Positions 42,520 through 58,575 of a stretch of 64,000 nucleotides of DNA are shown here, piece after piece. The stretch is taken from contig NZ_CP133597.1 in assembly GCF_031200575.1 (NCBI RefSeq), forward strand, positions 992,001 through 1,056,000. Reading direction: 5' to 3'. The position numbers were made by a program, and so were the translations under genes. The DNA comes from Ferroplasma sp. GTDB lineage: Archaea; Thermoplasmatota; Thermoplasmata; Thermoplasmatales; Thermoplasmataceae. The notes beneath the pieces are model-generated. The model saw nothing but the letters and a program-made list of their open reading frames with translations. It searched no databases and was not told the origin of the DNA. Every line of letters starts with the position of its first letter. Position 1 is the stretch's first letter.

Positions 42520-42547
42520 AACGTGTCCGGTACAAAACTTAAATATA
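42520..42547 (+). promoter_or_regulatory. AACRTGTY box and TATA box of the KDG aldolase gene
   Basis: AACGTGTC (42520-42527) is centred about 19 bp upstream of the TATA-like CTTAAATATAG (42538-42547... centre near 42543). The box centre is 43.5 nt before the ATG at 42567. The mRNA is predicted to be leaderless. Confidence 0.6.
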
Positions 42548-42566
42548 GATTAATATTTACTTAATA

Positions 42567-43439
42567 ATGAAACAGCTTGAATCTATAATTCCATTGATTA
42601 CCCCGTTTACAAATAACAGGGTTGATAAACAGCTTGCAGTTGACCATGGAAACGATGTTCTGAAGGGAGGGATGAAATATCTATTCCTTGCCGGAACTAC
42701 AGGTGTAGGTCCATCACTTTCCACCCAGGAAAAGCTTGACCTCCTTGATGCGTTTTCGAATATTCCGGACAGTATTATGTTACAGGTAGGTTCACTAAAC
42801 CTGGAAGATTCTGTGGAAATGGCAAGGGCAGCAAAAAAGAAGAAGATACACGCTGTCGCTGCACTTCCTCCGTACTATTTTACAGGATTTAAAAGGGAGT
42901 GGCTTGTAAAATACTATGTGAAGATATCCTCCGAGTACCCAACCATCATATACAATTATCCCGATACAACAGGTTATAATATTACATATGATATTATTAA
43001 TGATATAAAGAAAGCCGGCGGAAATGTCATCGGAATCAAGGAAACAACCTTTGACATGAATGATATCCTGAATACAAAAATGTACGTGGATAATTTCAAG
43101 GTATACACAGGTCCAGATCAGTACATTCTATCAGGTTTCAGGCTTAACCTGGATGGATATGTTTCAGGTGCAGGAAACTACGGTTATAAAATTATAAAGG
43201 GCATAGAGGAAAACTATGATAACGAAAGGGGTGACAGGTACCAGTTCCTCCTCAATGAATTATCGGGGCTATCGAGAAAATACGGAACAATATCTTCTAT
43301 ATATGATATGGTTGAAATTATAACCGGCGTGGATGCAGGATGCCCCAGGGAGCCTTTCTTTAAAATGTCTGAAGGCGACAGGCTACAGCTGAAAAATGAA
43401 ATAAATACCCTAATGGAAAAATACAATTTCAAATTATAA
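42567..43439 (+). CDS. kdgA: 2-keto-3-deoxy-(phospho)gluconate aldolase, DapA superfamily
   Basis: The 290-residue (beta/alpha)8 aldolase cleaves 2-keto-3-deoxy sugar acids to pyruvate and an aldehyde. Landmarks are IIPLITPFTNNRVD at the start, FLAGTTGVGPSLS (about 38-50), the Tyr in IYNYPDTTGYN near 130, and the Schiff-base Lys in IGIKETTFD near 156. It resembles archaeal KDG aldolases of the non-phosphorylative Entner-Doudoroff pathway. It carries the cluster's AACRTGTY promoter box and is the natural last step for both dehydratases downstream. Confidence 0.87.
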   Translation: MKQLESIIPLITPFTNNRVDKQLAVDHGNDVLKGGMKYLFLAGTTGVGPSLSTQEKLDLLDAFSNIPDSIMLQVGSLNLEDSVEMARAAKKKKIHAVAALPPYYFTGFKREWLVKYYVKISSEYPTIIYNYPDTTGYNITYDIINDIKKAGGNVIGIKETTFDMNDILNTKMYVDNFKVYTGPDQYILSGFRLNLDGYVSGAGNYGYKIIKGIEENYDNERGDRYQFLLNELSGLSRKYGTISSIYDMVEIITGVDAGCPREPFFKMSEGDRLQLKNEINTLMEKYNFKL

Positions 43440-43495
43440 AAATACATTTATCTTGATAGGAATATTTAAATATTTTTAATTATATGTTATAATTT

Positions 43496-44185
43496 ATGTT
43501 TATCCGCATAGTATTGAACCATAAAAAATGCTGGTCTCAGGTTCTTGCAAAAAGTACTAATATTTACGGTTTTCTTCTTGGCCAAAAAACTCACGGTGAT
43601 GAAATCACAGGGACTGTTGCATTCTATCCACTTGGAAAACATACCAACTGGGAGGAGTTTTTTAATCGAATGAAGGAAGAAACTGCCGTTAAAAAAATAG
43701 AGCACATAGAATCCTATGGCAAATCCAGGGTATTTATTGTTAAATTTGTAAATAATCTAACAAACTCTGTTACCGCTCTTATTGAAAAATATGATGTGCC
43801 CTTCTACAGAGAAGTATTTTACCGGGGGCTTGAAATCTGGGATATATTTTCATGGCATGAAAATGATGGTGATTTAACCAGGAATCTGGAGCAGATAGCA
43901 GATGTTGTATATTTTAAGGAGCTGGAAAATATAAATTTCCCCGATCCATTCATTGATGGAGATCTCATATCAAATGTGCATCTACTCACCTATGCAATTG
44001 AGAATGGATATTATTCAAATAATAAGGACATCAATCTTGGAGAACTGGCCAGAATATTTGGAACCTCAAAATCCAACCTTTCAAGAAAATTTAAGAGATT
44101 TGAAACTTACACACTTAACTATTACCTTGCAAACCACCTCCAGTATATGGATATAGACAGGTTCGCTGCAAAGGAAAAATTGTGA
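43496..44185 (+). CDS. Bat-type (HTH_10) transcriptional regulator
   Basis: The 229-residue protein has an N-terminal alpha/beta sensor region of about 150 residues and a C-terminal helix-turn-helix of the bacterio-opsin-activator type. In it, LLTYAIENGYYSNNKDINLG leads into ELARIFGTSKSNLSRKFKRF (about 187-206). The usual Bat spacing between the tyrosine-rich helix and the recognition helix is kept. It lies inside the sugar-acid cluster but its own promoter (TATTTAAATA at 43463-43472) lacks the AACRTGTY box. It is the best local candidate for the protein that binds that box; this is inference. Confidence 0.8.
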   Translation: MFIRIVLNHKKCWSQVLAKSTNIYGFLLGQKTHGDEITGTVAFYPLGKHTNWEEFFNRMKEETAVKKIEHIESYGKSRVFIVKFVNNLTNSVTALIEKYDVPFYREVFYRGLEIWDIFSWHENDGDLTRNLEQIADVVYFKELENINFPDPFIDGDLISNVHLLTYAIENGYYSNNKDINLGELARIFGTSKSNLSRKFKRFETYTLNYYLANHLQYMDIDRFAAKEKL

Positions 44186-44215
44186 ATACTGTTTAAAAAT
44201 GGACAATGATCCGTA

Positions 44216-44246
44216 AACATGTTGCATGATACTGTTATATATAACC
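44216..44246 (+). promoter_or_regulatory. AACATGTT box and TATA box of dehydratase gene 1
   Basis: A perfect AACATGTT (44216-44223) is followed by GTTATATATAACC (44234-44246). The box centre is 42.5 nt before the ATG at 44262, and about 19 bp from the TATA centre. Confidence 0.65.
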
Positions 44247-44261
44247 AATTTATAATATATT

Positions 44262-45365
44262 ATGAAAATAACTGAAGCTGAAACATTTTTGCTGAATATA
44301 CCGGTTAGTAGAATAAACGACTCACAGTACACAGTGGACTCTATAAATCTACTGGTGCTAAGGATTTCCACAGATGCAGGAATAGATGGCTATGGCTATA
44401 ACTGGCATACCTCTGATGGCCTTGACATTGTACAGAAGATGTTTGATGAATATGTCGGGCCTCGATTAAAAGGTATGGACCCACTGATGCGCATGAAGGT
44501 TGAAAACTCACTAATGGAAACCCATAATTTTGGCTGGGACCCAAGATTGGGGTATAATGGCATCGGTGTTTATATAACCTCACTTGTTGACATTGCACTC
44601 TGGGATATTATGTGCAAGATAAAGGATATGCCACTGTATAAAGTGCTGGGTGCCGGAAGCGATAGGGTAGAGGCATACAATACAGATGGGGGATGGCTTT
44701 CATGGTCAAAAGAAGATCTCGTGAAGAATGCAGTCAGGCTAAAAAACAGTGGATACAAATCAATCAAATTAAAGGTAGGCAGCAGGGACCCTATGGACGA
44801 TTATGAACGGGTAAAAAGTGTTAGGGAGGCTATCGGTTATGATATAAAATTAATGATAGACGCAAATACTAAATGGGATCTTGAAACTGCAGTATACATG
44901 TCCAGAAAGCTGGAAAAATTCGATATTTACTGGCTGGAGGAGCCATTGAATCCTGACGATATAAGGGGACATGCTGAACTCAGAAGCAGAACCACTATCC
45001 CTATCGCCCTTGGGGAATCCATTACGAACCTTTATTCATTCCGGGATTACATGGTAGCTAGGGCAGTAGACATAATCCAGGTTGATGTTACCAAGGTCGG
45101 GGGTATTACAGAATGGTTAAAGGTCGCCAGCCTTTCTGAAGCCTTTGGCCTGAATCTTTATCCACATACCAACATACAGCAACCCCTGCATGGGCAGCTT
45201 GTGGCCTCTGTTCCAAATGGTAAAATAGTGGAGCACGTTGACTGGCTATCTGACGTGTGGAGGTATCCTGTCACACCTGAAAACGGGTATTTCCACCTAA
45301 ATAAGATAAAAGGCGCCGGTTCAGAGGTCACAGAGAAGGCCATAGAAAAATTCCTGGTTAAATAG
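44262..45365 (+). CDS. Enolase-superfamily sugar-acid dehydratase (mandelate racemase type), copy 1
   Basis: The 367-residue protein has an enolase-type cap and a (beta/alpha)7beta barrel. Catalytic Lys residues sit in SIKLKVG (about 167-173). Metal ligands lie in IDANTKW (Asp near 200), WLEEPL (Glu near 226) and LGESI (Glu near 252). The His-Asp dyad is in VDVTKVGG and LYPHTN (His near 303). This is the mandelate-racemase subgroup that dehydrates aldonic acids to 2-keto-3-deoxy acids. The exact sugar acid (gluconate, galactonate, xylonate, arabinonate or others) cannot be read. It carries the regulon box. Confidence 0.85.
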   Translation: MKITEAETFLLNIPVSRINDSQYTVDSINLLVLRISTDAGIDGYGYNWHTSDGLDIVQKMFDEYVGPRLKGMDPLMRMKVENSLMETHNFGWDPRLGYNGIGVYITSLVDIALWDIMCKIKDMPLYKVLGAGSDRVEAYNTDGGWLSWSKEDLVKNAVRLKNSGYKSIKLKVGSRDPMDDYERVKSVREAIGYDIKLMIDANTKWDLETAVYMSRKLEKFDIYWLEEPLNPDDIRGHAELRSRTTIPIALGESITNLYSFRDYMVARAVDIIQVDVTKVGGITEWLKVASLSEAFGLNLYPHTNIQQPLHGQLVASVPNGKIVEHVDWLSDVWRYPVTPENGYFHLNKIKGAGSEVTEKAIEKFLVK

Positions 45366-45383
45366 GGAAATATTCTGGGTTCA

Positions 45384-45415
45384 AACGTGTTGACATAAAT
45401 AATTATATATAAATA
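45384..45415 (+). promoter_or_regulatory. AACGTGTT box and TATA box of the CoA-transferase gene
   Basis: AACGTGTT (45384-45391) precedes AATTATATATAAAT (45401-45414) by the cluster's usual spacing. The box centre is 43.5 nt before the ATG at 45431. Confidence 0.6.
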
Positions 45416-45430
45416 TAACTTTTATTTTAG

Positions 45431-46612
45431 ATGGAAACATCTGCTCTGGACGGAATACGCGTAATAGAATGTTCTTTTCACCTCAATGGCCCATTTGCAG
45501 GAAGGCTTCTTGCAGAGCTCGGTGCAGAGGTCATAAAGGTAGAGCCACCTGAGGGGGAGCCGAACAGGCACAATTCAACCACCATAAAAGGAGAATCAAC
45601 ATTTTTCATGAACTATAATGCCAATAAAAAATTTATAACATTGAACCTCAAATCAACAAGAGGAAAGGAAATTTTTCTTGATTTAATAAAAAATAGCGAT
45701 GTTTTTCTGGATAACTTCAGGCCGGGTGTTATGGACAGGCTGGGGCTTGGCTATGAAGTCCAGAAGAAATACAATCCCTCTTTAATATATGCTTCCAGTA
45801 CCGGCTTTGGATATACAGGGCCCTATACTAACGATGCGGCATATGACACAACGATACAGGCGATGTCAGGCATGATGGATCTAACCGGTTTTCCCGGTGA
45901 TCCTCCAATAAGGGCAGCCCCGGCAATAATGGATATTTCGGCGGGCACCTACACCGCACTTTCCATACTTGCGGCGCTTCATTACAGGGATATGACCGGA
46001 AATGGACAGAGAATAGATATTGCAATGTTTGATGTTGCGGTTAATTACATGATAGGGCTTTACAGCCAGATGCAGGTTGGGAACGTTGTAAAACAGGGGA
46101 ATGCAATACCTGTACTGGCACCCTACAACGTGTACAGGACTAAGGACGGCTGGGTGGTTATAGTTATTGGCGATGATGACAAGTGGAAGCATTTTCTTGA
46201 AAAGATTGGAGAATCGGATTATCTGGAGGATAAAAGATTAATGCATCTTCCGGAGAGGACAAAAAATTCCGGGATTGTGGATAAAATTATCTCATCGTGG
46301 AGCATTAAAAATACATCAGAATATGCTGTTAATCTGGTAGTAGAATGTGGTGGGGCAGCATGTAAGGTTAGAAAACTGGAGGAACTCCCTGATGACCCCC
46401 AGGTGAGAGCAAGAAATATGATTGTTGATACAGTGCATCCGATTGTGGGGAATTTCAGAACTATCGGGTCAGCATTGAAAATGTCTGAGACTCCTGGAAG
46501 GGTGGTAACACCCGGTCTTCCCCTGGGATATAATAACATAGAGATATATAGAAAAATACTGAACCTTTCTGAGAACCAAATATCTGACCTGAGAAAGAGT
46601 GGAGTTATATAA
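45431..46612 (+). CDS. CaiB/BaiF-type (class III) CoA-transferase
   Basis: The 393-residue protein has the family's interlocked-ring fold signatures: ECSFHLNGPFAGRLLAELGAEVIKVEPP (start region), FLDNFRPGVMDRLGLGY, and YASSTGFGYTGPY. The catalytic Asp lies in PAIMDISAGTYTALSIL (about 173 onward). It transfers CoA between carboxylic acids, but donor and acceptor are unknown. It carries the AACRTGTY box, so a CoA-thioester step seems to be induced together with sugar-acid catabolism. It ends against the convergent MaoC gene without a spacer. Confidence 0.87.
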   Translation: METSALDGIRVIECSFHLNGPFAGRLLAELGAEVIKVEPPEGEPNRHNSTTIKGESTFFMNYNANKKFITLNLKSTRGKEIFLDLIKNSDVFLDNFRPGVMDRLGLGYEVQKKYNPSLIYASSTGFGYTGPYTNDAAYDTTIQAMSGMMDLTGFPGDPPIRAAPAIMDISAGTYTALSILAALHYRDMTGNGQRIDIAMFDVAVNYMIGLYSQMQVGNVVKQGNAIPVLAPYNVYRTKDGWVVIVIGDDDKWKHFLEKIGESDYLEDKRLMHLPERTKNSGIVDKIISSWSIKNTSEYAVNLVVECGGAACKVRKLEELPDDPQVRARNMIVDTVHPIVGNFRTIGSALKMSETPGRVVTPGLPLGYNNIEIYRKILNLSENQISDLRKSGVI

Positions 46613-47038
46613 TCATAACCTGGCAATTATGGGGTGATTGTACTGGCACACTATAGTGCCATCCTGTTTCAATACCTTTACATTGAATACCATAATTTTC
46701 ATTCCCCGGTGTGTTTTGCTTTCTCTTTCTGATTCCAGTGTCAGCTCAGAATGTATTGTATCCCCTATATAGGTAGGGTTTGGAAACCTAACATCCTCAA
46801 AACCAAGGGTCATTAGTGGTACATTTTCCCAGTCAAAATAGTTTGTCCTGAAAAACAGGCCTTCAGATATGCTTAGTATAAGGAGGCCATGGGCAACCCT
46901 TCTTCCGGATATAGATTTTCTGGCTGCATATAACTCATTTGTATGTGCCGGATGGTAATCCCCGCTTAATCCAGCAAATTCCACTATCTCAGATTCTGTA
47001 ACAGTTCTACCAGGAGTTATGATGGTCTTGGATTCCAT
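46613..47038 (-). CDS. MaoC-like hot-dog dehydratase/hydratase
   Basis: The 141-residue single hot-dog protein has the MaoC hydratase core FAGLSGDYHPAHTNELYA, containing the Asp/His pair typical of R-specific enoyl-CoA hydratases, and VAHGLLILSISEGL. It probably hydrates or dehydrates a CoA-thioester. It is convergent with the class III CoA-transferase; MaoC hydratases and such transferases often act on the same metabolites. No AACRTGTY box is seen before it. Confidence 0.83.
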   Translation of the reverse strand: MESKTIITPGRTVTESEIVEFAGLSGDYHPAHTNELYAARKSISGRRVAHGLLILSISEGLFFRTNYFDWENVPLMTLGFEDVRFPNPTYIGDTIHSELTLESERESKTHRGMKIMVFNVKVLKQDGTIVCQYNHPIIARL

Positions 47039-47116
47039 AAAATAATATATATATTTATTATTAAATATTTTCTTCCAGGAATATTAGGTAAAATAGAAAA
47101 ATAGTGACATGGGCAC

Positions 47117-47144
47117 AACATGTACATACAAAATTTTTTATAAG
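47117..47144 (+). promoter_or_regulatory. AACATGTA box and TATA box of alcohol dehydrogenase gene 1
   Basis: AACATGTA (47117-47124) is followed by TTTTTTATAAG (47134-47144). The box centre is 42.5 nt before the ATG at 47163. The promoter lies inside a longer open frame that begins at 47109, which argues against that earlier start. Confidence 0.6.
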
Positions 47145-47162
47145 TTTTGTACCTGTTATATT

Positions 47163-48173
47163 ATGAAAGCAATGGTTTTGAATGACACCGGAAAGGTGGA
47201 GGATAATATCCTGAAATATAAAGATGTTGAAATTAGGGAACCCGGGGGCTATGAGATACTGCTAGATAATATATCATGCGGCGTTTGCCACTCCAACCTT
47301 CATATGATAGAGGGGGACTGGATATCCCACGGACTACCAGGGAAAAAACCAATAATCCCGGGGCATGAAATTATTGGAAGGGTCCACTCTCTGGGTGAAC
47401 TTGTGGAAGGCATAAAGAAGGGTGATGTTGTAGGTGTCCAGCCGCTTTTCCAGGCATGTGGTAAATGTGATTACTGCACAACAGGAAGGGAGTATCTGTG
47501 TCCATATGGAAAGTGGACCGGTGAAACTGTAGATGGTGGATACTCACAGCAGATGATTGCAGATTCCAGATACGTTAATAAGGTCCCCTCAAATATAGAC
47601 TATATTAAAGATTCTCCATTGTTCTGTCCTGGAATAACAGCATATTGTGCTACTGAAAAGGCAGAGCTCGCACCGGATAAAACAGTCTACGTTGTGGGCA
47701 TTGGTGGGGTTGGGCATCTGGTACTACAGTTTGCAAAGCTTTACGGGAGCAGAGTTGTTGCAGTATCCACATCGAAGGCCCATGAGGAACTTGCATATAA
47801 AATGGGAGCCGATGATGTCCTGTTAATGGACAGAGATTTTTCAAACGCAGATAAATACAGAAAAACTGCGGACTCCCTTATACTCTTCGCTCCATATGAT
47901 AAAGCAATAATGAATTCTATGAAGATGATAAAGGATAGTGGTGTAATGGTTCAGGGCGTATTTGGAAAAATTGACTATGATTTTACCACTGAAATCAGGT
48001 TAAAAGGCACAAAGATCGGAGGCAGGCATGACATGGACCAGGTACTCAAGATAGCATCTCAGAACAGGATAAAGATAGAGTCAAAAGAATACCGCCTTGA
48101 GGATGCAAATCTCGCATTGCAGGATCTGAAGCAGGGAAAGATAAATGGACGGGCAGTGTTAAAATTGAACTGA
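47163..48173 (+). CDS. Zinc-dependent alcohol/sugar dehydrogenase, copy 1
   Basis: I start the gene at the ATG at 47163 (MKAMVLNDTG), because box and TATA lie in the preceding 46 nt; the frame is open back to 47109. The 336-residue medium-chain dehydrogenase has catalytic-zinc residues in SCGVCHSN and PGHEIIGRV. Structural-zinc cysteines are in CGKCDYCTTGREYLC, and the NAD(P) motif is VGIGGVGHLVLQFAK. In the regulon it may oxidise an aldose to its lactone or handle an aldehyde product. Confidence 0.87.
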   Translation: MKAMVLNDTGKVEDNILKYKDVEIREPGGYEILLDNISCGVCHSNLHMIEGDWISHGLPGKKPIIPGHEIIGRVHSLGELVEGIKKGDVVGVQPLFQACGKCDYCTTGREYLCPYGKWTGETVDGGYSQQMIADSRYVNKVPSNIDYIKDSPLFCPGITAYCATEKAELAPDKTVYVVGIGGVGHLVLQFAKLYGSRVVAVSTSKAHEELAYKMGADDVLLMDRDFSNADKYRKTADSLILFAPYDKAIMNSMKMIKDSGVMVQGVFGKIDYDFTTEIRLKGTKIGGRHDMDQVLKIASQNRIKIESKEYRLEDANLALQDLKQGKINGRAVLKLN

Positions 48174-48302
48174 AATCCTGCAATCAGATCATATATTGTA
48201 TAATTGTATATCATTTATTTTTTGTTTAACCTATAATGTTTTTAGTATATAATGACCTGAAAGACATGTTTTATAAAACTATTTGGGAATTATTATATAA
48301 GC

Positions 48303-48328
48303 AACATGTTGATTATAATATTTAAATA
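48303..48328 (+). promoter_or_regulatory. AACATGTT box and TATA box of the MFS transporter gene
   Basis: A perfect AACATGTT inside CAACATGTTG (48302-48311) precedes ATATTTAAATA (48318-48328). The box is 50.5 nt from the ATG at 48357 because a short leader with GGTG lies before the start. A second partial site, ACATGTT, lies at 48264-48270. Confidence 0.6.
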
Positions 48329-48356
48329 CTGATTGTAGTTATAAATTTGATGGTGT

Positions 48357-49775
48357 ATGACCGAACATATAAATAATAATGGTACATATAAGTACAAGCT
48401 CGATGAAATTTTGCGCAGACTTGATGATGCTAAACTTAGAAATATGTACTGGGCATTTGTGGCGCTTGCTACCATAGGAGGTTTTCTTTTTGGATATGAC
48501 CAGTCAAATATTGGCCTTGTTATCCCGTTTTTCCCATATACATCACACATACCGGTACTTCTTGGACTTGAGGCCTCATCAGAGTTCCTTGGAGGTGCTG
48601 TAGGGGCCCTTATTGTGACTTTTGTTGCGGATAAAAGTGGAAGAAAAGCTTTCCTTCTTGCTGATATGGGAATTTATATTGTAGGGGCCCTGGTTTCAGG
48701 ATCTGCTACCTCTTATCTGGTTCTTTTGATTGGCAGGCTAATTATCGGTGTTGGAATAGGTGCCGACTCAGCCATTGCTACAGCATTCATCTCGGAATTT
48801 GCTCCTGCAAAGGACCGTGGAAGGCTTACAGGTTTTCAGCAGATGATGATCAATATGGCCATTCTGGGGGCCTACCTTATTGGTATCCTTGTTTACGGAG
48901 TAGACCCGGCCGGTGTTGCCACAGTTGGATGGAGGATACTATTTTATGTGGCTGCAGTTCCTGCAGTTATTGGTCTGGTGTTTAGGTACAAAATACCTGA
49001 ATCTCCCAGGTGGCTAATCATTCATAAAAATATAGATAAAGCCAAAAAGGTTCTTGAAACCTTCGGAATATCGGCCACCGTGGAAGAGTTAACAGAGGCT
49101 TCAAATGAATGGAATGAAAAAATCAAGTCATATAAAATACCGAGGTCTATATGGAAAGGTGTTGGAGTTATAGTTGGTTTTGCGTTCTTTGATATGTTCT
49201 GCGGAATAGACATACCATTTATATTCGGTCCGGAGATACTCAGTACAATACATCTTTTCCCAACAGTTGTAAATCCGGTTACCTCAGAAATATACGATAT
49301 GGCAGCTCTGGTTCCCATAGGGATTGCCCTTACTGTTGGCGGTTTCTACGGATGGTCGCATATTGATACATGGGGCAGAAAGAAAATTTCAGAAATAGCA
49401 TGGACCGGGATGATCATATCAGGGTTTATAGCCGCCATACTGTGGGCATTCAAGCTATATCTCATAGTCCTTATATTCCTTTACATATATACTTTTGTAT
49501 ATTCTGTATCCATAGGCATGACTGCCTGGGTACTCCAGGGAGAAAGTTCTACAAGTGAATCCAGGGGATTTATAGCAGGAATCATAGCCATAGCAATCTG
49601 GGTTATGGATTTTGCAAACGTTACCATATATCCTATCATGTCCAGCAGAATTGGATTCACAGGCGCATGGATTGTCTACTCACTTCTATCAGTGGGTGCA
49701 TTAATATGGACAATATTCATGCTGAAAGAAACCAAGGATGTACCAGTTGAGGAAATGGATAAACTCTATGCCTGA
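48357..49775 (+). CDS. MFS sugar transporter (sugar porter family)
   Basis: The 472-residue protein has 12 predicted transmembrane helices. Sugar-porter motifs are present: GGFLFGYDQSNIGLV in helix 1, ADKSGRKAF after helix 2, PESPRWLI before the central loop, WGRKKI after helix 8, and KETKDVPVEEMD at the C-terminus. It probably imports a sugar or sugar acid by proton symport, fitting the acidic habitat. The regulon box supports co-induction with the dehydratases and aldolase. Confidence 0.88.
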   Translation: MTEHINNNGTYKYKLDEILRRLDDAKLRNMYWAFVALATIGGFLFGYDQSNIGLVIPFFPYTSHIPVLLGLEASSEFLGGAVGALIVTFVADKSGRKAFLLADMGIYIVGALVSGSATSYLVLLIGRLIIGVGIGADSAIATAFISEFAPAKDRGRLTGFQQMMINMAILGAYLIGILVYGVDPAGVATVGWRILFYVAAVPAVIGLVFRYKIPESPRWLIIHKNIDKAKKVLETFGISATVEELTEASNEWNEKIKSYKIPRSIWKGVGVIVGFAFFDMFCGIDIPFIFGPEILSTIHLFPTVVNPVTSEIYDMAALVPIGIALTVGGFYGWSHIDTWGRKKISEIAWTGMIISGFIAAILWAFKLYLIVLIFLYIYTFVYSVSIGMTAWVLQGESSTSESRGFIAGIIAIAIWVMDFANVTIYPIMSSRIGFTGAWIVYSLLSVGALIWTIFMLKETKDVPVEEMDKLYA

Positions 49776-49953
49776 TTTTTTCGGTTAAATTTTTTATATT
49801 TTTCTCATACTTACTTTTTAAAATATTATAAAATTAATTTGCAAATATTATAAAATCAGGCTAAAAATAGAGTATATATGAAACAGGGTCTGTGGGAGAA
49901 ATTATGGAATTAACATATGGCTTATGGGAAAATAATCAAAACAACCTCTTCAT

Positions 49954-51042
49954 TTAAATATATTCAGCATTGTACTCTTCTAATGCCTTTCTGCTGAACT
50001 TTACGCCTGTTCCCGGTTTCATAGAGGGATATATCATCCCACTTTCTATTTTCGGTTTTTCGGAAAACAGTTTTTCCATCCATGGAATATACTCCACATA
50101 GATGCCTTCAGGGATAGATGATACCAGTGGTGCATGAAGCTGCATAATAAAATGGGGTGCTATATTAACATTATTCGCCATACACAGGGAGGAGATTTGG
50201 ATCCATTCAGTTATTCCTCCGGTTCTGCAGACGTCTGGCTGTGCTATGGATATGCCAGCGCCAATATACCTCATAAATTCATATTTTGTGAAAATTGTTT
50301 CACCTGCAGCCACCGGAATTCCTGAGTTTATGGACAGTTTTTGATATGCTCCAATGTCATCCGCCGGAAAAGGCTCTTCGATCCAGGCAATCCCGATATT
50401 CTCCATCATCCGTGATCTCCTGAGCCCCTCTGGATACTGCCATGCCTGGTTTGCATCTGCCATTACAGAAATTTTTCCATCAACGGCATCCACTACCGCT
50501 TTAAGTCTCTGCATATCCTCTTCAATGGACTTTCCTACCTTAATTTTGAATCCATAAAATCCAGATTTCATTACATGTTTGGCTGATTCAACCAGTTCCT
50601 CCTGAGTATAATGCAGCCACCCGGAGTTGGTCTCGTAAAGCTTTACCGGCCTGCCATTACCACCAAGCATCCAGAATAATGGCTTCCCTGCCTCAAGGCA
50701 TTTGATGTCCCATAGAGCAATATCAACGGCAGCAATAGCATGCTCTGTTATTCCACCTCTTCCAACAGGCTGTGACATCCACCATATTTTATTCCAGATA
50801 CCATTGATATCGCCACTATCCTCACCTATTATAACTTTCTTAACATAACAATCAAGAAATGCCTTGATGGATGCTCCACCGTTACCTATGGTATAGGTAA
50901 AGCCTGTCCCCTCAATTCCATCCACAGTGATTATCCTGCATATTATTATTTCAACAGATTCTGTTGAATGAATGGAATCGCTAATATGCTTATCGGTGGG
51001 TACCTTCAAAAGCTGAGAATCCATATCCACAATTTTTGACAT
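49954..51042 (-). CDS. Enolase-superfamily sugar-acid dehydratase (mandelate racemase type), copy 2
   Basis: The 362-residue protein has catalytic Lys residues in FKIKVGKS (about 159-166). Metal ligands are in MADANQAW, WIEEPF and AAGETIF, with a Asp/His pair in QPDVCRTGG and IAPHF. It keeps all active-site positions of copy 1 but is clearly diverged, so the two probably act on different sugar acids. It is divergent from the GH88-like gene. Its promoter has only a weak version of the regulon box. Confidence 0.84.
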   Translation of the reverse strand: MSKIVDMDSQLLKVPTDKHISDSIHSTESVEIIICRIITVDGIEGTGFTYTIGNGGASIKAFLDCYVKKVIIGEDSGDINGIWNKIWWMSQPVGRGGITEHAIAAVDIALWDIKCLEAGKPLFWMLGGNGRPVKLYETNSGWLHYTQEELVESAKHVMKSGFYGFKIKVGKSIEEDMQRLKAVVDAVDGKISVMADANQAWQYPEGLRRSRMMENIGIAWIEEPFPADDIGAYQKLSINSGIPVAAGETIFTKYEFMRYIGAGISIAQPDVCRTGGITEWIQISSLCMANNVNIAPHFIMQLHAPLVSSIPEGIYVEYIPWMEKLFSEKPKIESGMIYPSMKPGTGVKFSRKALEEYNAEYI

Positions 51043-51070
51043 TTTATATCCATAAATAATTCAGGTTCAG

Positions 51071-51097
51071 GTATAAAATTCTTGAGGTTGATAGGTT
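51071..51097 (-). promoter_or_regulatory. Weak AACRTGTY-like box and TATA box of dehydratase gene 2
   Basis: On the minus strand AACCTATC (51090-51097) matches six of eight consensus positions. It lies about 17.5 bp before the TATA-like AATTTTATAC (51071-51080). The stronger CACATGTT of the divergent gene lies 12 bp further and might serve both. Confidence 0.3.
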
Positions 51098-51105
51098 GTA
51101 TATGT

Positions 51106-51134
51106 CACATGTTGATAACAATATCTTTATATGG
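51106..51134 (+). promoter_or_regulatory. CACATGTT box and TATA box of the GH88-like gene
   Basis: CACATGTT (51106-51113) differs from AACATGTT at one position and is followed by ATCTTTATATGG (51123-51134). The box centre is 42.5 nt before the ATG at 51152. Confidence 0.55.
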
Positions 51135-51151
51135 TTATGAGCTGATAAATT

Positions 51152-52279
51152 ATGGACTACAAGGACCCGAGGCATATTTACAGTACCATGGAAACAATAG
51201 CGGAAAAGGTTAATAAAATTTCTGAAGAATGCATAAATAGGTTTCCCTATTACAGGGATGAGTTCTCTGGTAGACTTGTCTGCACTGATACATGCAACTG
51301 GAGTGGTGGCCATTGGATTTCACTGCAGTTAAATTCATATATAATTTCCCCAGAAACCGGCATAATAAACAACATTAAGTCCTTGAAGGACAGAATAAGT
51401 TGCAGGTCGAAGGACAGGGATATATTCCTGGGTTTTATTTTCTATTACTCATTTGCACGAATGTATGACATGTTCGGCTCAGAATACGATCTTAATACCG
51501 CACTGTCGGCAGCCGATACCCTCATTTCCATGTTCAACCCAGTGGCTAAGCTGATTCCACTGGGAAGTGAATGCCAGGTTCTGGGAACTGATATACAGGG
51601 TGATAACATTGCTGCGGTTGACGGTTCCATCATAGCAAATATACTTCTGTACTGGGCATACGATCATACAGGAAGGCAGGATTATCTGGAGACGGCCATA
51701 AGCAATCTGGACAGCACTATAAAAATATTCATGAGAGGTAATTTTTCTGTAATACATATGGTTAAATTCGATCCTGATTCTGGAAATATTCTGACAAAAT
51801 GGAATAATCTTGGTTACAGTAATAACACAACCTGGTCCCGTGGACAGGCATGGTTTCTTCTGGCTCTTGCCTATGGATATAAATATACTGAAAACAAAAA
51901 ATACATCGAAATTTACAGGAAGGCGCTGAAATTTTATATCGGTCGTTGCAGGCTAACTAGTCTTCTACCCTTATATGACCTTCAGGCACCAGAAGAACCT
52001 GGAACCCCTGTTGATGCTTCTTCACTGGCTATTCTTGCCAAATCATATATAACTATGCTGGAACTTGGACTGGATGATGATGGTACACTGAATTCCATAC
52101 TAGATACCATACTTTCAATTATTGATGTCACTCCCAGCAGCTTTATAACCCACCATGTATGTTTTGATTATCCCCACAGGTTTGCAATAGACTCTGACAT
52201 GGTTTTTGCAGATTACTATATCCTCGATTTCCTGATAAATCTGAATGAATATATCCAGAGAAGAAATAAAATTATTTAA
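51152..52279 (+). CDS. GH88/GH105-like unsaturated glucuronyl hydrolase family protein
   Basis: The 375-residue protein has the (alpha/alpha)6 barrel pattern of GH88: NWSGGHWISLQL (about 49-60), AVDGSIIANILLYWAYDHTG with the family Asp (near 154), TWSRGQAWFLLALAYGYKYT (about 227-246), and GTPVDASSLAILAKSY. GH88 and GH105 enzymes hydrolyse unsaturated uronic acid from glycan fragments, giving material for the KDG route. No signal peptide is present, so it acts inside the cell on imported short saccharides. Precise substrate is unknown. Confidence 0.75.
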   Translation: MDYKDPRHIYSTMETIAEKVNKISEECINRFPYYRDEFSGRLVCTDTCNWSGGHWISLQLNSYIISPETGIINNIKSLKDRISCRSKDRDIFLGFIFYYSFARMYDMFGSEYDLNTALSAADTLISMFNPVAKLIPLGSECQVLGTDIQGDNIAAVDGSIIANILLYWAYDHTGRQDYLETAISNLDSTIKIFMRGNFSVIHMVKFDPDSGNILTKWNNLGYSNNTTWSRGQAWFLLALAYGYKYTENKKYIEIYRKALKFYIGRCRLTSLLPLYDLQAPEEPGTPVDASSLAILAKSYITMLELGLDDDGTLNSILDTILSIIDVTPSSFITHHVCFDYPHRFAIDSDMVFADYYILDFLINLNEYIQRRNKII

Positions 52280-52328
52280 CATATAAAGGAAATAAGGATA
52301 TGCCTACAATTATAAAAGCATTGCTGAG

Positions 52329-52349
52329 TGCTGTATTTCAGGAACAGCA
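52329..52349. terminator. Hairpin between convergent genes
   Basis: TGCTGT (52329-52334) and ACAGCA (52344-52349) form a 6-bp stem with a 9-nt loop directly at the end of two convergent genes. It may help termination; archaeal terminators do not usually need hairpins. Confidence 0.3.
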
Positions 52350-53126
52350 TTATACAATAATGCCATTCCGGTATTTTTCCATCAGTGTTGATTCCAGCAT
52401 GGGGACAATAATGTCACAGTTTCTTTCTGCTATTTTCATAGAACTTATGGACTCTTCAAGGCTAACACCAACGCCTATGGGTATATGTTCCTGCAGATTC
52501 CTGTATGTAAAGAATGAATCCGTGAGTCCAACCCTGCCAATTTCTGTGTTAACTATTATTAGCAATGAGCTGAAATGGTGTCCGCCAGTACGGATAACTT
52601 CTATGCCATTCTCTATAACATCATGGTCCTCCAGTAGATATACCCGGTCCCACCAGTCAGTTACAAGATGGCTCATTATTTTATCAGGAAAGTTAATTTC
52701 CCGTTCAGGCATCTGTTCCACTGGATTCTTGTTCATTAACTGCACCCATCCTGTTTTGGAAAAGAAAATTTTGGCATTAGTATATAAATCGAGATTTCCA
52801 GTTGCATAGGATACTAAGGGTGACAGGATCACACTGCTCACTGACTGAGGTGCAAATCCCAACTGTGAAAGATAAGTTGGGTCATTGAACTCAGATGCTT
52901 TTTCAGCCTTAATTCCGGGGTCCGTATTATACCAGTGCTGCATCAGGGGTTTCATATCAACCGGCATACCGGTGTTGAGTATAATTTTTTTATTGCCTGA
53001 CCTGATTAAAGCCATATGAAATACCAGCCTTTCGTATCTGTCAAAATCCTTCATAAAATAGGCAAGGGGTGAAGGCACTGTATGCTCACCTGACCTTACC
53101 AGCCTTATACTCCATTTTTCAACCAT
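52350..53126 (-). CDS. Metallo-beta-lactamase-fold protein (lactonase-like) with degenerate metal site
   Basis: The 258-residue protein follows the quorum-lactonase-like MBL layout, but the HxHxDH metal motif is replaced by SPLVSYATGN (about 102-111). The usual DTG is NTG, the second His motif is TGGHHFSS and the later Asp is TDSFF. The final His region reads PMLES. The fold and order of elements are kept while almost all metal ligands are gone. Position after a sugar dehydrogenase suggests descent from a sugar-lactone hydrolase. It may now be a metal-independent lactonase, a binding protein or inactive. GGTGAT precedes the ATG, so it is translated in the operon. Confidence 0.7.
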   Translation of the reverse strand: MVEKWSIRLVRSGEHTVPSPLAYFMKDFDRYERLVFHMALIRSGNKKIILNTGMPVDMKPLMQHWYNTDPGIKAEKASEFNDPTYLSQLGFAPQSVSSVILSPLVSYATGNLDLYTNAKIFFSKTGWVQLMNKNPVEQMPEREINFPDKIMSHLVTDWWDRVYLLEDHDVIENGIEVIRTGGHHFSSLLIIVNTEIGRVGLTDSFFTYRNLQEHIPIGVGVSLEESISSMKIAERNCDIIVPMLESTLMEKYRNGIIV

Positions 53127-53140
53127 TTATATCACCATTA

Positions 53141-54175
53141 TCAATCTGGCACTATTACCTGCCTTCCCAGGACGGTACCAGAGCTTATGGCTTCAAGACC
53201 GACGTTTGCATCTTCAAGTTTTCTTTCCACAACATAACTTTTTATCCGTTTCATTGAATACATCTTAATCACATCTATCATATCCTGATAGGTCCCGTAA
53301 TTGCTACCGCTTATGGAATGCTGGTATACCATTGTTGTGAAAACATCTATATTGCTGGTTTTTCCGTATGCACCAACGAGGACAAGTTTTCCATTTACAC
53401 TTAGTACACTGTTCAGCATCTGGACAGTATCACTGCTGGAAACAAGATCGATCGCCCCCTGTGCTCCCTCTCCATCTGTAACCATGCCTACGGTTTCCTT
53501 CAGCTGGGATGGCTTTACAACTATGTCAGCACCCAATTTTTTGGCAAATTCAAGATGCTCATCTTTCCTAGATACAGCTATGACATTTACTGTTGGCATA
53601 ACTGTTTTCATTATTTGAACCGTATAAGTGGCCAGGCCCCCAATACCATTGATTATAATAGTTGATACTGGAGATACAGAGGAAACTATCTTTTTTACTG
53701 CACCAAGTGATGTGGTTCCTGCATCCACCAGTGGAGCAACATGGATAGGATCAAGAGACCCTATTCCATATAGCCATCTGTAATCAGGAACAAGCATATA
53801 CTCAGCATAGCCACCGTTGTATCCAGTCTGTCCGGGAGTTGTTTGGTAAGGGCACAAATTTGGGAACCCTCCGCGGCACCATCTACATTTGCCACATCCC
53901 CATGCTGGATATACAGCAACCCTATCACCGATATTATAATCCTGAACCGAATCCCCGATACTAACTATCTCCCCCACATTCTCGTGTCCAAGTATCATGG
54001 GGAGCTGAAATCCTGGTTTTAACTCTATACCCCTTGAAATGCCCAGATCAGTGCCACACATTCCTGCAGCGAGTATTTTTATTATAACCTCATTGCCCTG
54101 TGGGTTATCAAGATGAATTTTATCCCTGATTAATGGTTTATTGAAGTCTGATAGCACCATTGCATAGAATTCCAT
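53141..54175 (-). CDS. Zinc-dependent alcohol/sugar dehydrogenase, copy 2
   Basis: The 344-residue medium-chain dehydrogenase has catalytic-zinc residues in AAGMCGTDLGI and LGHENVGEIV, structural-zinc cysteines in CGKCRWCRGGFPNLC, and the nucleotide-binding NGIGGLATYTVQIMK. It probably oxidises an aldose to its lactone, the first step before lactone opening and dehydration. It is the first gene of a two-gene operon with the MBL-fold protein (14-bp gap) and carries the regulon box in a variant form. Confidence 0.87.
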   Translation of the reverse strand: MEFYAMVLSDFNKPLIRDKIHLDNPQGNEVIIKILAAGMCGTDLGISRGIELKPGFQLPMILGHENVGEIVSIGDSVQDYNIGDRVAVYPAWGCGKCRWCRGGFPNLCPYQTTPGQTGYNGGYAEYMLVPDYRWLYGIGSLDPIHVAPLVDAGTTSLGAVKKIVSSVSPVSTIIINGIGGLATYTVQIMKTVMPTVNVIAVSRKDEHLEFAKKLGADIVVKPSQLKETVGMVTDGEGAQGAIDLVSSSDTVQMLNSVLSVNGKLVLVGAYGKTSNIDVFTTMVYQHSISGSNYGTYQDMIDVIKMYSMKRIKSYVVERKLEDANVGLEAISSGTVLGRQVIVPD

Positions 54176-54192
54176 GAATATAACATGTATAC

Positions 54193-54223
54193 GGCTATAT
54201 TTTAATTTTTATATGGATATGTT
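54193..54223 (-). promoter_or_regulatory. AACATATC box and TATA box of alcohol dehydrogenase gene 2
   Basis: On the minus strand AACATATC (54216-54223) is followed by ATTAAAATATAGCC (54193-54206). The box centre is 44.5 nt before the ATG at 54175. A further ACATGT lies near the start of transcription at 54184-54189. Confidence 0.5.
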
Positions 54224-54240
54224 GCATATTAGATGATCAG

Positions 54241-55156
54241 GTCAGTTGCACAATTCATTTTACCATAAATTTTGATTTAATGTAAATCCCCTGTACGGTT
54301 AAATACGGAATTGATTTGTTTTTTATGACACCAAAACCAGTCACTTTTGGATCAAACAGGGATATAAGAAGATATGGATAATACAAGCTACAGGAAGGGT
54401 TATTCAGAAAGGTATGTAACTGCCATGAATGATTTTATGGATAATAGCCCATTAAATAGACGGAGGGAACTATTAGATGAAAACAATTACAACAGGAGGG
54501 GGGCCATTTAAGGTGCCGGGAATAGTAATAATGTACCTAGATAGTTTAAGGGAGTTAAGGGGAATGCCATTCAGGCAGCTGGAGTCAGAACTCCATAACT
54601 TATCAAGAATATTCAGATTCCCTGAAATATCATTTACATCAATATACAGGAGGATAAGAAAAATAATTCCGGAAATAGGGAGTGATAATAATGGTGCATT
54701 GGCAGCAATAGACTCCTCAGGATTCAAGGTAACATTAAGGGGAGACTACCCAGGCAATAAATGGCATAAGATAAGAAGGGGATGGATTAAGCTGCATGCT
54801 GCTATAGACATTAATAATTTTGAGATAATAGATTACTCCATTACAGATGAACATGCAAATGATGCTAAGGAGGGAATAAAATCATAAGGAGAGTTAAGAA
54901 TAAAATAAGAAGATTATACGGTGACAAGAGATATGATTCTAAATTAATTTACAATGAATTAGAGGGCAGGGCTGCAATACCCCCAGGGAGGAATGCATCA
55001 ACACTTTCTAGAGTCTCCTCCTAAAGGGCAAAGATTACAGGATTCATTAAAAAATTTAGTGAAAGAACATGGAAGGTTAACAATAATTATGGCTTAAGAT
55101 GGAAATTTCTACAATGAGTACAGTAAACTAAGGTGGGAACTAATTACGCAACTGAC
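54241..55156. mobile_element. Degenerate IS5-like insertion sequence
   Basis: Imperfect terminal inverted repeats begin GTCAGTTGC at 54241 and end GCAACTGAC at 55156; inside, AATT and TT positions also match. The roughly 916-bp element holds a broken transposase. No target duplication could be seen at its flanks, consistent with an old insertion. Confidence 0.55.
54374..55110 (+). pseudogene. IS5-like DDE transposase pseudogene
   Basis: The frame starts MDNTSYRKGYSERYVTAMND at 54374. It shifts near 54495 in a run of G (AGGAGGGGGGCC) into the frame that reads PFKVPGIVIMYLDSLRELRG. The first catalytic Asp is in AIDSSGFKVT. A stop appears at 54885, after which another frame continues as RRVKNKIRRLYGDKRYDSKL with the second acidic region. 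It stops again near 55021. The final Glu region is unrecognisable. Several lesions make it inactive. Confidence 0.75.
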
Positions 55157-55885
55157 TTTTATTTATCTAAAAATTAAAATATACAATGGGGTGCATTTTC
55201 ACATGTATAAATTAGCAAAGTGATTCCCTGAATTTCCTATTCTATGTTACTGTCTATACAGAAATTATCTAAGGACTATAATCATTGACATTCATTTTTG
55301 GGGATTGGCCATGCTGTAAGATATAATGGGGCTCTGGAAATAAGCCCTCAAATCAGTATAAAGTTCCTGCATGCCTTATATTGCAGCAGGAAGGGTTATG
55401 CAATATCTGAATATAATTCAGGAAATCCAATCTACTTTCCAGAGACAATTTATACATATATACCAACCGGTAGAATACCGAAGAGCATTTTCAAATGTTT
55501 CATATATATTACAGGAGTGTACGTGTTAATAGTACAGCTCTATCTTCATCTGAATTCATTAATTCTATGACGAAACGTAAATTATCGTTATAGAACGGAA
55601 GGACTGTTCCCTGGTGAGAATGCGAGGGAAATGCTGAAAATCAGGACGAATCAGATTAGGCACTTGTTTTTGGTCAATCAGCTAAAACTGGCGTTAACCA
55701 GTAATTACAGACGACTATACTCAGGATAATTTTATCGAAAGTCTTGTTATGCCTTACATGCAGATCTTCTCCCAACCTTAAGACATTAAGATACTAGGGA
55801 TATTATTTTTTGGGAAGTTTAAGCACAGAAATGTATTAGAAAATTAAACAATATGTACTTTCTTCGGAGCCTACTGTTCGTTTAC
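55157..55885. other. 729-bp gap with no recognisable gene
   Basis: This stretch between the IS5-like remnant and the MNT gene has stops in every frame apart from a 90-codon frame (55298-55570) with unnatural composition. A short piece near 55590-55700 reads like old coding sequence but matches nothing I know. I regard it as decayed sequence. No promoter, repeat or RNA signal is convincing. Confidence 0.5.
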
Positions 55886-56275
55886 TCAGGAATTACTATA
55901 ATACAATTTCCTAATATTTTCCATTATGGACTGTTTTCCGGATAGGATTATGCCATTTTGAATTATTTCCAGGATTATTTTTTTCTTTTCGATACTTAAA
56001 GCATATACTTCATCTAAAGTATACACTCTAGGTTCCACATCAACGGGGAAACTGGGCTCCATAAAGTCAATAACATTTTTTTTCCCCTCAGTTATTATTA
56101 TGACATCGGCATCCGAAAATGGTGAATAATTTCCCTTGGCCAGGGATCCAATTAGTATGGCCAACACTGCACCTTTGTTCGTGCAACGATTTCCATATTC
56201 CTCGAGTTTCTTGATTATTAATTTATAATCAAGTTCGTATATTTTTGGAGCAGAATTCAAATATTTCCTTTGCAT
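55886..56275 (-). CDS. MNT-type nucleotidyltransferase domain protein
   Basis: The 129-residue protein has the minimal nucleotidyltransferase signature GSLAKGNYSPFSDAD (about 43-57), with the GS and both Asp residues intact, and DVEPRVY later for the third acidic position. Such proteins pair with HEPN proteins in toxin-antitoxin or stress modules, where the MNT partner acts as antitoxin or adenylylates the toxin. It overlaps the HEPN gene by 47 bp, an unusually long overlap that points to coupled translation. Confidence 0.8.
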   Translation of the reverse strand: MQRKYLNSAPKIYELDYKLIIKKLEEYGNRCTNKGAVLAILIGSLAKGNYSPFSDADVIIITEGKKNVIDFMEPSFPVDVEPRVYTLDEVYALSIEKKKIILEIIQNGIILSGKQSIMENIRKLYYSNS

Positions 56276-56618
56276 AATTTATACACCTGCGGGCATCTTC
56301 AATTGAATAATATTCATAAGGGGAACCTTCAGTATAATAATCAGGGTATCTCGAACCCGTATACACTCTATCAAGTTCTTTTGACCTTTCTATTATCTGT
56401 TTATCTACTTTAAATTCAGGAAGTTGAGATAGCATTCTAGAGATGGAATGGCTCCATATTTCCTTATTTAAGGCATTATAAAGACCCTTGACAGCCTTTT
56501 CCGCACTTTGCTGGGCGGCGAAGCAAGCCCATTCATATTTTCCGTGTCCCATAGAATCTTCTGCTTCTTCCAGATCTCTCTTAGATTGATTTAACCAGTC
56601 CAATGGTCTCGACGGCAT
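56229..56618 (-). CDS. HEPN-domain protein
   Basis: The 129-residue all-helical protein has the HEPN pattern SKRDLEEAEDSM, CFAAQQSAEKAVKGLY and SHSISRML, followed by the SRYPDYYTEG loop typical of the Y-x-x-RYPD subgroup. I see no RX4-6H ribonuclease motif, so it may not be an RNA-cutting toxin. It is the first gene of the HEPN-MNT pair, which sits between two insertion-sequence remnants and may have arrived with them. Confidence 0.8.
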   Translation of the reverse strand: MPSRPLDWLNQSKRDLEEAEDSMGHGKYEWACFAAQQSAEKAVKGLYNALNKEIWSHSISRMLSQLPEFKVDKQIIERSKELDRVYTGSRYPDYYTEGSPYEYYSIEDARRCINYAKEIFEFCSKNIRT

Positions 56619-56672
56619 TTTATAGAACTATGATTAATGTGTTAATAATGATTTCTATGTAGGAACGAGTTT

Positions 56673-57379
56673 ATGTTATCACGAATTGAGTTCCTATTTG
56701 AAGACCACTTAAATATAGATAGAAATGCTCAACCCAGGGTGAAGTTAAACAATAAGAAATTAAAATACATAATAAATCAGAAAAAGAAAGGAGTATCATC
56801 TGCTGAATTAGCAGCAATATACAGGGTAAGTACAGGATATATCAATAAGATCTATTACAATTACATCAACTACGGTAAAACAGAGTTATACAGTCATGGA
56901 AGGAAGATAAAGTTAATAGATGAATATACTGAGGAACTCATAATAGGTATAAGAAATACCCATCCACTGTCAGGGCCTATGGCAATAGATAACTACCTTA
57001 TGGAATCAGGAGTTAAAGTATCCCAATATTATATACAGGGTATTGTTGAAATATAATATGGTAGACCAGAGCATGAAGGAGAAAAAGCAGAGGAAGTATG
57101 TAAAGCATGAGAGGAAGCACAGCAATACACTGTGGCATATTGACTGGTCTAATTACAGTGATAAAGAGAAGTTAATCATCATAGAGGATGATGCTTCAAG
57201 GTTCATAGTGGGATTTGGAGTGCCATTGAAGCCATACTTCTCCACATAGGAGGAGGTAATATATTACTATAATTATAGGAGAAGGCATATGTCATTATCC
57301 ATAGATGGAAGGCGGGTTGTAACACCTGCCATGGCATATGAAGAAAAGGGAGGTAAGTTAAATGTTAAGGAACAATAGA
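56673..57379 (+). pseudogene. IS481-like transposase pseudogene with internal deletion
   Basis: The N-terminal helix-turn-helix part (56673-57056) reads KLKYIINQKKKGVSSAELAA and ends after a frameshift near 57050. The integrase core continues as NTLWHIDWSNYSDKEKLIII, with EDDASRFIVGFG holding the second acidic patch, and stops at 57247. After that only the extreme C-terminus remains (YYNYRRRHMSLSIDGRRV, to the stop at 57379). The middle of the core, including the third catalytic residue, is deleted. The element is inactive. Confidence 0.75.
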
Positions 57380-57405: not shown

Positions 57406-58575
57406 TCATAGACTATTGCCCTTCATAGCAATTAAACATGCTCCCAGTGTAGTAGGCTCTATCCCGGTTATTTCATATCTCAGGTTTGTTAGTGCAACAA
57501 CAATTGAACCTATATTTACTTTAGACATTCCTCCACCTGCAATTATACCATTGAAGTGGTGTGCTTCCTGATTTGATTTCATTATATTTTCTATCATATC
57601 AACACTTAAATATGCCATGCTATGTAAAATTGCAGCGATCATATAATCATTTGTTGACCATTTGTCAATGCCATAAAAGCCTGCCCTGATCTCTGTGTTA
57701 AAAATTGGACATCTCTCCCCTTCCAGATATGGAAGAAATGTAATTGCTCTTGGATTCATATCAATACGGTTCACATCTATTCTTCTCTTGTAATTTCTTT
57801 CAGCCCATTCAAGAATCGTTGAATACTGAGAATTGCATCCATTTATCAGATATCTTCCTTCGAAATAAAGATCATTATATGGTGTGCTACTTCTTATAGG
57901 TGTTCTGGAGACATATCCAGCGCAGAGTGTGATCAATTGGTTATAAAGAATTTATTGGGATCGAGGCTGATAGACCCCATGGCTGAAACTATTGTATCTA
58001 CTGTACCTATACTTACAGCCATATTCCGGTATTCACAGGAATATTCGGGTTGGACCAGCTCAGGAAGTCTGGTTTCTATTTCCAGTTCCTGTACGGTCTG
58101 AAGTTCCCATTCCATGGTCTTTGAGTTCAACAATCCCCATTCAAGTGCAGTATTGATATCCTGCACCGGTTGATGTGGTGAATTTTTTAGCTTTGTAAAT
58201 AAAAAACCGTTGAGTTCTACTATCCATCTTGTTGCCGAGAAAATATTTGCAGCATTTTTTTTAATCCATTTAATTTTCTAATAAAAAACTGCAAATTAGG
58301 TATATTCAGAATTATATTACAGATGACATCTTTATCCAAATCTGAAAGGAATTCTACTCCCAGTAAGGAGTTTTACGGAATTCCGGTCAAGGCAATTTTT
58401 TCTGAATTCATGCAAATGAGTATCGGCGCCATTGTAGACATATTTACATATAATACACCCATCGTATCAAGCATATCCAGGATTTTGACAGTTCCATACT
58501 CTCCAGATTATATGCTTCCCACTTAATTGAGAATGAACCGACATCTACACCAGCTATCAGTTTATTTTTAACCAT
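57406..58575 (-). pseudogene. FGGY-family carbohydrate kinase pseudogene
   Basis: The N-terminus starts at an ATG at 58575 with IAGVDVGSFSIKWEAYN, the FGGY phosphate-1 motif, but the frame breaks soon after. Sequence resumes near 58250 as ATRWIVELNGFLFTKLKN, then reads on to a stop at 57933. It shifts again into ITLCAGYVSRTP and the C-terminal FGGY motif FNGIIAGGGMSKVNIGSIV, and ends abruptly at GACLIAMKGNSL beside the insertion-sequence remnant. Total length is well short of the usual 490-500 codons. It was probably a gluconate-, xylulose- or KDG-type kinase. Confidence 0.75.

Follow-up and report, generated by a model that had tools for sequence, protein, structure and literature searches.

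Does a sugar-acid gene cluster of Thermoplasmatales use the same kind of promoter switch as the Ara-box regulon of Sulfolobales, and if so, which protein reads the switch? The question is raised by a 64,000-nucleotide (nt) stretch of the complete 1.86-Mb genome of a Ferroplasma sp. (G000, C1:992001-1056000; here called the window), in which eight promoters of a cluster at 42.5 to 54.3 kb carry a box of the form AACRTGTY or a variant of it. The cluster encodes a KD(P)G-type aldolase, an HTH_10 regulator (REG), two enolase-superfamily sugar-acid dehydratases (DHT1 and DHT2), a CaiB-type coenzyme A (CoA) transferase, a MaoC hydratase, two zinc alcohol dehydrogenases (ADH1 and ADH2), a sugar-porter MFS protein, and a GH88-like protein. 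From sequence comparison, we conclude with high confidence that the regulon is real, and we consider it very likely that the eight boxes are the operators of a sugar-acid catabolic regulon with REG as its activator.

Box position and conservation

All seven promoter boxes listed by the first-pass annotation are present where it had placed them, four as exact matches to AACRTGTY and three with one mismatch. The eighth, before DHT2, had been listed as a weak site and proved to be real, since a box stands at the same place in both relatives that have the cluster. Two of the eight boxes are exactly AACATGTT, the published Ara-box core (PMC7264815), as the annotation had stated; the other six differ from it by one or two changes. 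We found the same gap of exactly 11 bases (N11) between the 8-bp box and a TATA-like octamer in 8/8 promoters (Table 1). The centre-to-centre distance is thus 19 bp throughout, which sharpens an earlier estimate of 17 to 19 bp. The box centre lies 42.5 to 44.5 nt from the start codon in six of the first seven promoters, again as noted before; the exception is the MFS gene, at 50.5 nt.

Table 1. Boxes of the cluster and the candidate regulator gene (window positions; G067 and G064 are relatives with the same cluster)
Feature	Position	Strand	Downstream gene or product	TATA element	Box in G067	Box in G064	Remark
Box AACGTGTC	42520..42527	+	KD(P)G-type aldolase, 42567-43439	TATA 42539-42546	AACGTGTT, same place		TATA after 11 bases
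REG	43496..44185	+	HTH_10 regulator, 229 aa					Candidate box reader
Box AACATGTT	44216..44223	+	DHT1, 44262-45365	TATA 44235-44242	AACATGTT	AACATGTT	
Box AACGTGTT	45384..45391	+	CaiB-type CoA transferase, 45431-46612	TATA 45403-45410	GACGTGTT	AACCTGTC	
Box AACATGTA	47117..47124	+	ADH1, 47163-48173	TATA-like 47136-47143	Identical		Weaker score
Box AACATGTT	48303..48310	+	Sugar-porter MFS, 48357-49775	TATA 48322-48329	AACATGTT	AACATGTT	
Box AACCTATC	51090..51097	-	DHT2, 49954-51042	TATA-like 51078-51071	AACATATT, same place	AACATATC, same place	AACCTATC-N11-TTTTATAC
Box CACATGTT	51106..51113	+	GH88-like, 51152-52279	TATA-like 51125-51132	CACAGGTT	Half-site only	Weakest of the eight
Box AACATATC	54216..54223	-	ADH2, 53141-54175	TATA 54204-54197	Identical	AACGTATA, same place, weak	

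With up to one mismatch allowed, AACRTGTY matches 167 times in the window and 167.9 +/- 16 times in shuffles. The motif by itself therefore occurs at chance frequency, and the signal is its position. The pattern AACRTRTY-N11-HWWWATA has 12 matches genome-wide, 5 of them within the 11.7-kb cluster, which is 0.6% of the genome (Poisson P about 2e-8). Since the genome-wide total is not above that of a reversed-pattern control, the evidence lies in clustering and register and not in the number of matches.

The first-pass annotation had proposed a weight-matrix scan and a comparison with related genomes. We built a matrix from six sites of the relative G064 alone and scanned it over 574 kb of the window's genome (1.15 million positions); these own-genome stretches, together with whole-genome pattern searches, served as the background. 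Five cluster promoters fell within the top seven positions (MFS at rank 1, DHT1 at 2, ADH2 at 4, aldolase at 5, and CaiB at 7), and at the proper place none of 367 background genes reached the score of any of them. The scores of ADH1, DHT2, and GH88 were reached by 2, 2, and 8 of the 367 genes, respectively. By the same matrix, the promoters of REG, aconitase, and malic enzyme are ordinary (29, 66, and 106 of the 367 reach their scores). Background genes are not enriched for the box: ACATGT-type hexamers 44 to 50 nt before the ATG numbered 4 versus 3.4 expected among 313 background genes from evenly spaced stretches of this genome. The box is therefore not a general promoter element.

Among 117 genomes of the same order, we found the complete cluster with REG in only two besides the window genome. 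One, the congener G067, is about 91% identical over the cluster and so tells little on its own. The other, G064, is a diverged congener in which most orthologues are 62 to 80% identical (GH88, 50%) and the gene order is different. Despite the altered order, G064 keeps boxes at the same place before DHT1, CaiB, MFS, DHT2, and ADH2, and REG stays with the cluster in both relatives. The G064 MaoC promoter reads AACATATT-N11-TTAAATAT, unlike that of MaoC in the window, which has no box of its own. This conservation supports the earlier proposal that the regulon is local and has its site directly before the TFB recognition element (BRE) and TATA box, as for an activator.

Three other sites were set aside. 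The good site claimed before a hydroxyacid dehydrogenase (37823) did not hold up: its ATG is 58 nt away, which is the wrong spacing, its score at the proper place is equalled or exceeded by 287 of the 367 background genes, and the site is missing from the G067 orthologue, which is 91% identical. A minus-strand N10 match at 48270 has only a 51-aa open reading frame downstream, and a minus-strand site at 43488 lies between REG's TATA box and start and is not conserved in G064; both were taken as chance. Elsewhere in the genome, an APC-type permease gene (L078/L231, at C1:836400, minus strand) has AACATGTT-N11-TATA with the ATG at +46 and ranks third in the genome sample. The G067 orthologue is 97% identical, with the entire region conserved, and its box reads AATATGTT. 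This permease is a possible distant member of the regulon.

The GH88-like protein is near unsaturated glucuronyl hydrolases, and a further protein of the cluster has a weak likeness to metallo-beta-lactamase lactonases. The porter is of the MFS type; ABC transporter genes are absent from the cluster, with no CUT2 transporter beside REG. The gene content fits sugar-acid catabolism, with a substrate possibly freed from an unsaturated uronide, and the substrate of the regulon is probably a uronate, an aldonate, or a deoxy-sugar acid. One gene (52350-53126) lies directly downstream of ADH2. Immediately past the cluster are transposase gene remnants (54477-57300), a DDE-type fragment among them, and adjoining these is a C-terminal fragment of an FGGY-type carbohydrate kinase (57406-57936, minus strand).

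REG as the candidate activator

REG carries a C-terminal HTH_10 domain (PF04967, bacterio-opsin-activator type) that scores 29.9 bits against a curated cut-off of 23.1. Its own promoter has no box at the standard place, and the score there is within the background range. The predicted structure (mean predicted local distance difference test score of 73) gave no significant match in the PDB; the best was Ta1207, with an E value of 0.013.

We reached Sulfolobales genomes through a Sac7d query and a CUT2 permease search. In one of them (G138, locus L147), AACATGTT stands in the promoter of a binding-protein gene, which is found with a permease, an ATPase, and a regulator gene downstream, arranged as in the published locus (PMC7264815). 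We infer that this regulator (L147:1818-2510, minus strand) is XylR of S. acidocaldarius. It carries HTH_10 at 68.6 bits, and the promoter of the presumed Saci_2122, with its Ara-box, has the N11 spacing too. REG and the presumed XylR align over their full length (224 residues, 21% identity, E value of 7e-9 for the pair) and have in common the N-terminal motif HxxCW[ST]. A 50-protein tree places REG in a well-supported clade of Thermoplasmatales proteins, among them one from a different family of the order (G028); XylR falls elsewhere, in a weakly supported half, and a second tree agrees. Neither tree gave a supported sister grouping of the REG clade and XylR. The alignment thus shows REG to be a homologue of the presumed XylR, with orthology unsupported. 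The first-pass annotation had suggested that box and regulator are shared across distant acidophilic archaea. What stands of this is the HTH_10 family, the ACATGT core, and the N11 geometry; a single shared regulator is not supported, there being neither a supported REG-XylR sisterhood nor a CUT2 transporter beside REG. Because REG is not demonstrably the orthologue of XylR, the suggestion holds at the family level only.

In Sulfolobus, recruitment of TFB to a weak BRE has been proposed as the action of the Ara-box factor (PMC5512572), and induction there requires both XylR, an activator, and an intact Ara-box (PMC7264815). Since the regulator is homologous and the position of the boxes with respect to TATA is the same, this mechanism is the best model for the cluster. 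According to this model, REG would bind as a dimer to the AACRTGTY palindrome, the edge of which is 11 bp from the TATA box. An inducer would bind the N-terminal domain of REG, and REG would then recruit or stabilise TFB and TBP on a weak BRE. The palindromic form of the boxes is consistent with binding by an HTH_10 dimer. The transcripts probably have no leader or a very short one, and this would hold the box about 43 nt ahead of the start codon. The binding, activation, inducer, and TFB recruitment steps are modelled by analogy.

Some observations weigh against this account. Two of the boxes, those of GH88 and ADH1, are weak, and G064 retains the former only poorly. MaoC lacks a box (177 of the 367 background genes reach its score), and its start faces the ADH1 box. 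The recognition helices of REG (SKSNLSRKFKR) and XylR (TKVALDRHIRN) are unlike, at an overall identity of just 21%. Lastly, the G064 sites for the matrix were selected visually by someone who already knew the window motif, which slightly weakens that test, although a selection of this kind cannot by chance yield such ranks.

Could the motif nevertheless be chance, or a generic feature of AT-rich leaderless promoters? The chance-level frequency of the bare motif and the control-level genome-wide total agree with this. The concentration of 5/12 matches in the cluster, the boxes retained in orthologous promoters, and the lack of enrichment in background genes refute it for the set as a whole, and we consider it highly improbable; it could still hold for GH88 alone. 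It is also unlikely, in our view, that the boxes are operators of the regulon read by another protein. The genome has seven HTH_10 genes, leaving six other candidates, and for at least one of them (REG2, at 442 kb) there are boxes in the same position whose core is related. Against this, REG sits in the cluster and remains there in G067 and G064 despite reordering, the flavour of the box in G064 tracks the adjacent regulator, and the full cluster was found only where REG is present.

REG might instead be a repressor whose action at the boxes is relieved by the inducer, as a dimer next to the BRE could block TFB as well. We think this quite improbable, since a box upstream of BRE/TATA without overlap is at the archaeal activator place (PMC5512572) and XylR, of the same family, activates (PMC7264815). 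A different history would be horizontal transfer of regulator and box as a unit from Sulfolobales, the shared AACATGTT reflecting recent descent. Homologues of CaiB (44 to 45%) and MaoC (50%) are indeed encoded in Sulfolobales clusters that have an HTH_10 gene and ACATGT-type boxes of their own. However, the closest relatives of REG are from Thermoplasmatales, including the other family (G028), XylR is not a supported sister, and the regulators of two such clusters with CaiB and SDR genes (L149 and L150) are closer to REG3, another HTH_10 protein of the window genome, than to REG. We regard transfer as unlikely.

Other HTH_10 loci and a possible flank code

REG2 is flanked by HMGL-like and MFS genes with AACATATT-N11-TATA and the ATG at +46. 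In this locus (L094, C1:432001-452000), the MFS gene (439705), a CaiB-like gene (440881), and the HMGL-like gene (441915) are on the minus strand, and the HTH_10 gene (442047) is on the plus strand. The MFS box is identical in five congeners (G060, G061, G065, G067, and G068). The HMGL-like site is AAYATRTTATAT in G062, G065, G066, and G068 and AACAGATT in G067, and it is kept as AAYATRTT in most. This locus is apparently a second HTH_10 regulon. At the REG3 locus (L098, C1:1697946-1703926), the HTH_10 gene is near an enolase-superfamily dehydratase with the promoter box AACATATC, at N10 and not N11. The locus also encodes a 256-aa protein, the start of which resembles that of the window protein 52350-53126.

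In G064 (L041, C49) and G066 (L042, C26), a DHT1 paralogue (67 to 68%) adjoins a different HTH_10 gene, and TTACATGTAA or TTATATGTAA precedes the paralogue and most of its neighbours. A box of the same type precedes a DHT1 paralogue in G041 (L043, C244; 66 to 68% over the three loci). The TTACATGTAA boxes of these loci are perfect or near-perfect and lie 47 to 49 nt before the starts. G064 is in this respect a natural experiment, as one genome contains both the REG cluster with AACATGTT-type boxes and, beside another HTH_10 gene, a cluster with the 68% identical DHT1 paralogue and TTACATGTAA or TTATATGTAA at the same place. G042 has a relative of REG (36%) beside AACACGTT-N11-TTTTATAG, and G028 has GGACATGTCC at N11. 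Among Sulfolobales, the flanks of the ACATGT-type boxes are TTACATGTA-like or AACATGT-like in L149 and L150, and L151 has TTWACATATWAA-like boxes.

Near HTH_10 loci, ACATGT-type hexamers peak 45 to 49 nt before the ATG. At 44 to 50 nt we counted 15 versus 3.6 expected for Thermoplasmatales loci and 11 versus 1.8 for Sulfolobales loci, which were chosen by regulator, transporter, or dehydratase and not by box, and which are few, some being near-duplicates. In both groups, other HTH_10 genes thus have nearby palindromes with an ACATGT core in this position and with varying flanks (AACATGTT, TTACATGTAA, TAAYATRTTA, and GGACATGTCC), which suggests a family-wide operator geometry and a flank code. 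We tentatively propose, as a possibility somewhat short of an even chance, that HTH_10 regulators with the HxxCW[ST] N terminus are a family of archaeal activators whose operators are all built alike: a palindromic core of the ACATGT type, 11 bp, and TATA, 45 to 50 nt before the start codon. The base pairs just outside the core would be the address that separates paralogues (TTWACATATWAA being a further form), and the Ara-box would be one dialect of a code common to Thermoplasmatota, Thermoproteota, and perhaps haloarchaea. Box type is not supported as a clean marker of regulator clade; regulators that are not sisters have the same two types of box.

Significance and comparison with known systems

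Site and regulon are both known for few archaeal activators, and the Ara-box has been described as a feature of Sulfolobales. We found no report of an Ara-box in Thermoplasmatales in a literature collection with few subscription journals. If the proposal is true, the cluster provides a predicted set of regulator, site, and regulon for this order, and the rule of a palindrome, N11, and TATA beside an HTH_10 gene would assign operators to uncharacterised HTH_10 proteins. The flank differences between paralogues within one genome, G064, would make the recognition code directly testable.

TFB-RF1 (PF1088) of Pyrococcus, with an activator site beside a weak BRE and a TFB recruitment model (PMC5512572), is a mechanistic parallel only. 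In Haloferax mediterranei, a denitrification motif, CGAAYATDKTYG, is suspected to be read by a bacterioopsin-activator-like protein, the binding protein having been left open (PMC11218638). The haloarchaeal NarO and DmsR are likewise bacterioopsin-activator-like regulators, and the motif admits CGAACATGTTCG, which contains AACATGTT (PMC11218638); control there is by respiration mode and not by a sugar acid.

The Sulfolobales clusters L149 to L151, which combine CUT2 and HTH_10 genes, resemble the window cluster in CaiB (41 to 45% identical), in MaoC (50%, L151), and in palindromic boxes N11 from TATA, mostly 47 to 51 nt before the ATG. They differ in the boxes (TTACATGTAA-like, AACATGT-like, or TTWACATATWAA-like), in the transporter, and in their regulators, which fall outside the REG clade. 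These clusters and that of the window apparently have in common a CoA-linked step in sugar catabolism.

The closest comparison is with the Ara-box/XylR regulon of Sulfolobales (PMC7264815). There, D-xylose or L-/D-arabinose induces, and the targets are pentose uptake by a CUT2 ABC transporter and a pentose oxidation gene set, which the window cluster does not match; its targets are dehydratases, a KD(P)G-type aldolase, a CoA transferase, alcohol dehydrogenases, and an MFS porter. The window's regulator is 21% identical to XylR and not a supported orthologue of it, it belongs to a different phylum, and its box is relaxed to AACRTGTY. The two systems are alike in the AACATGTT core, in a box directly upstream of BRE/TATA with N11 to a TATA-like octamer, and in a regulator with a C-terminal HTH_10 domain and the HxxCW[ST] motif, encoded near its targets. 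The absence of a box before REG also parallels xylR, which is reported to lack regulation at the transcriptional level (PMC7264815). Judged by these sequence features, it is the same kind of switch in two archaeal phyla as far as the family of the regulator and the geometry of the operator are concerned.

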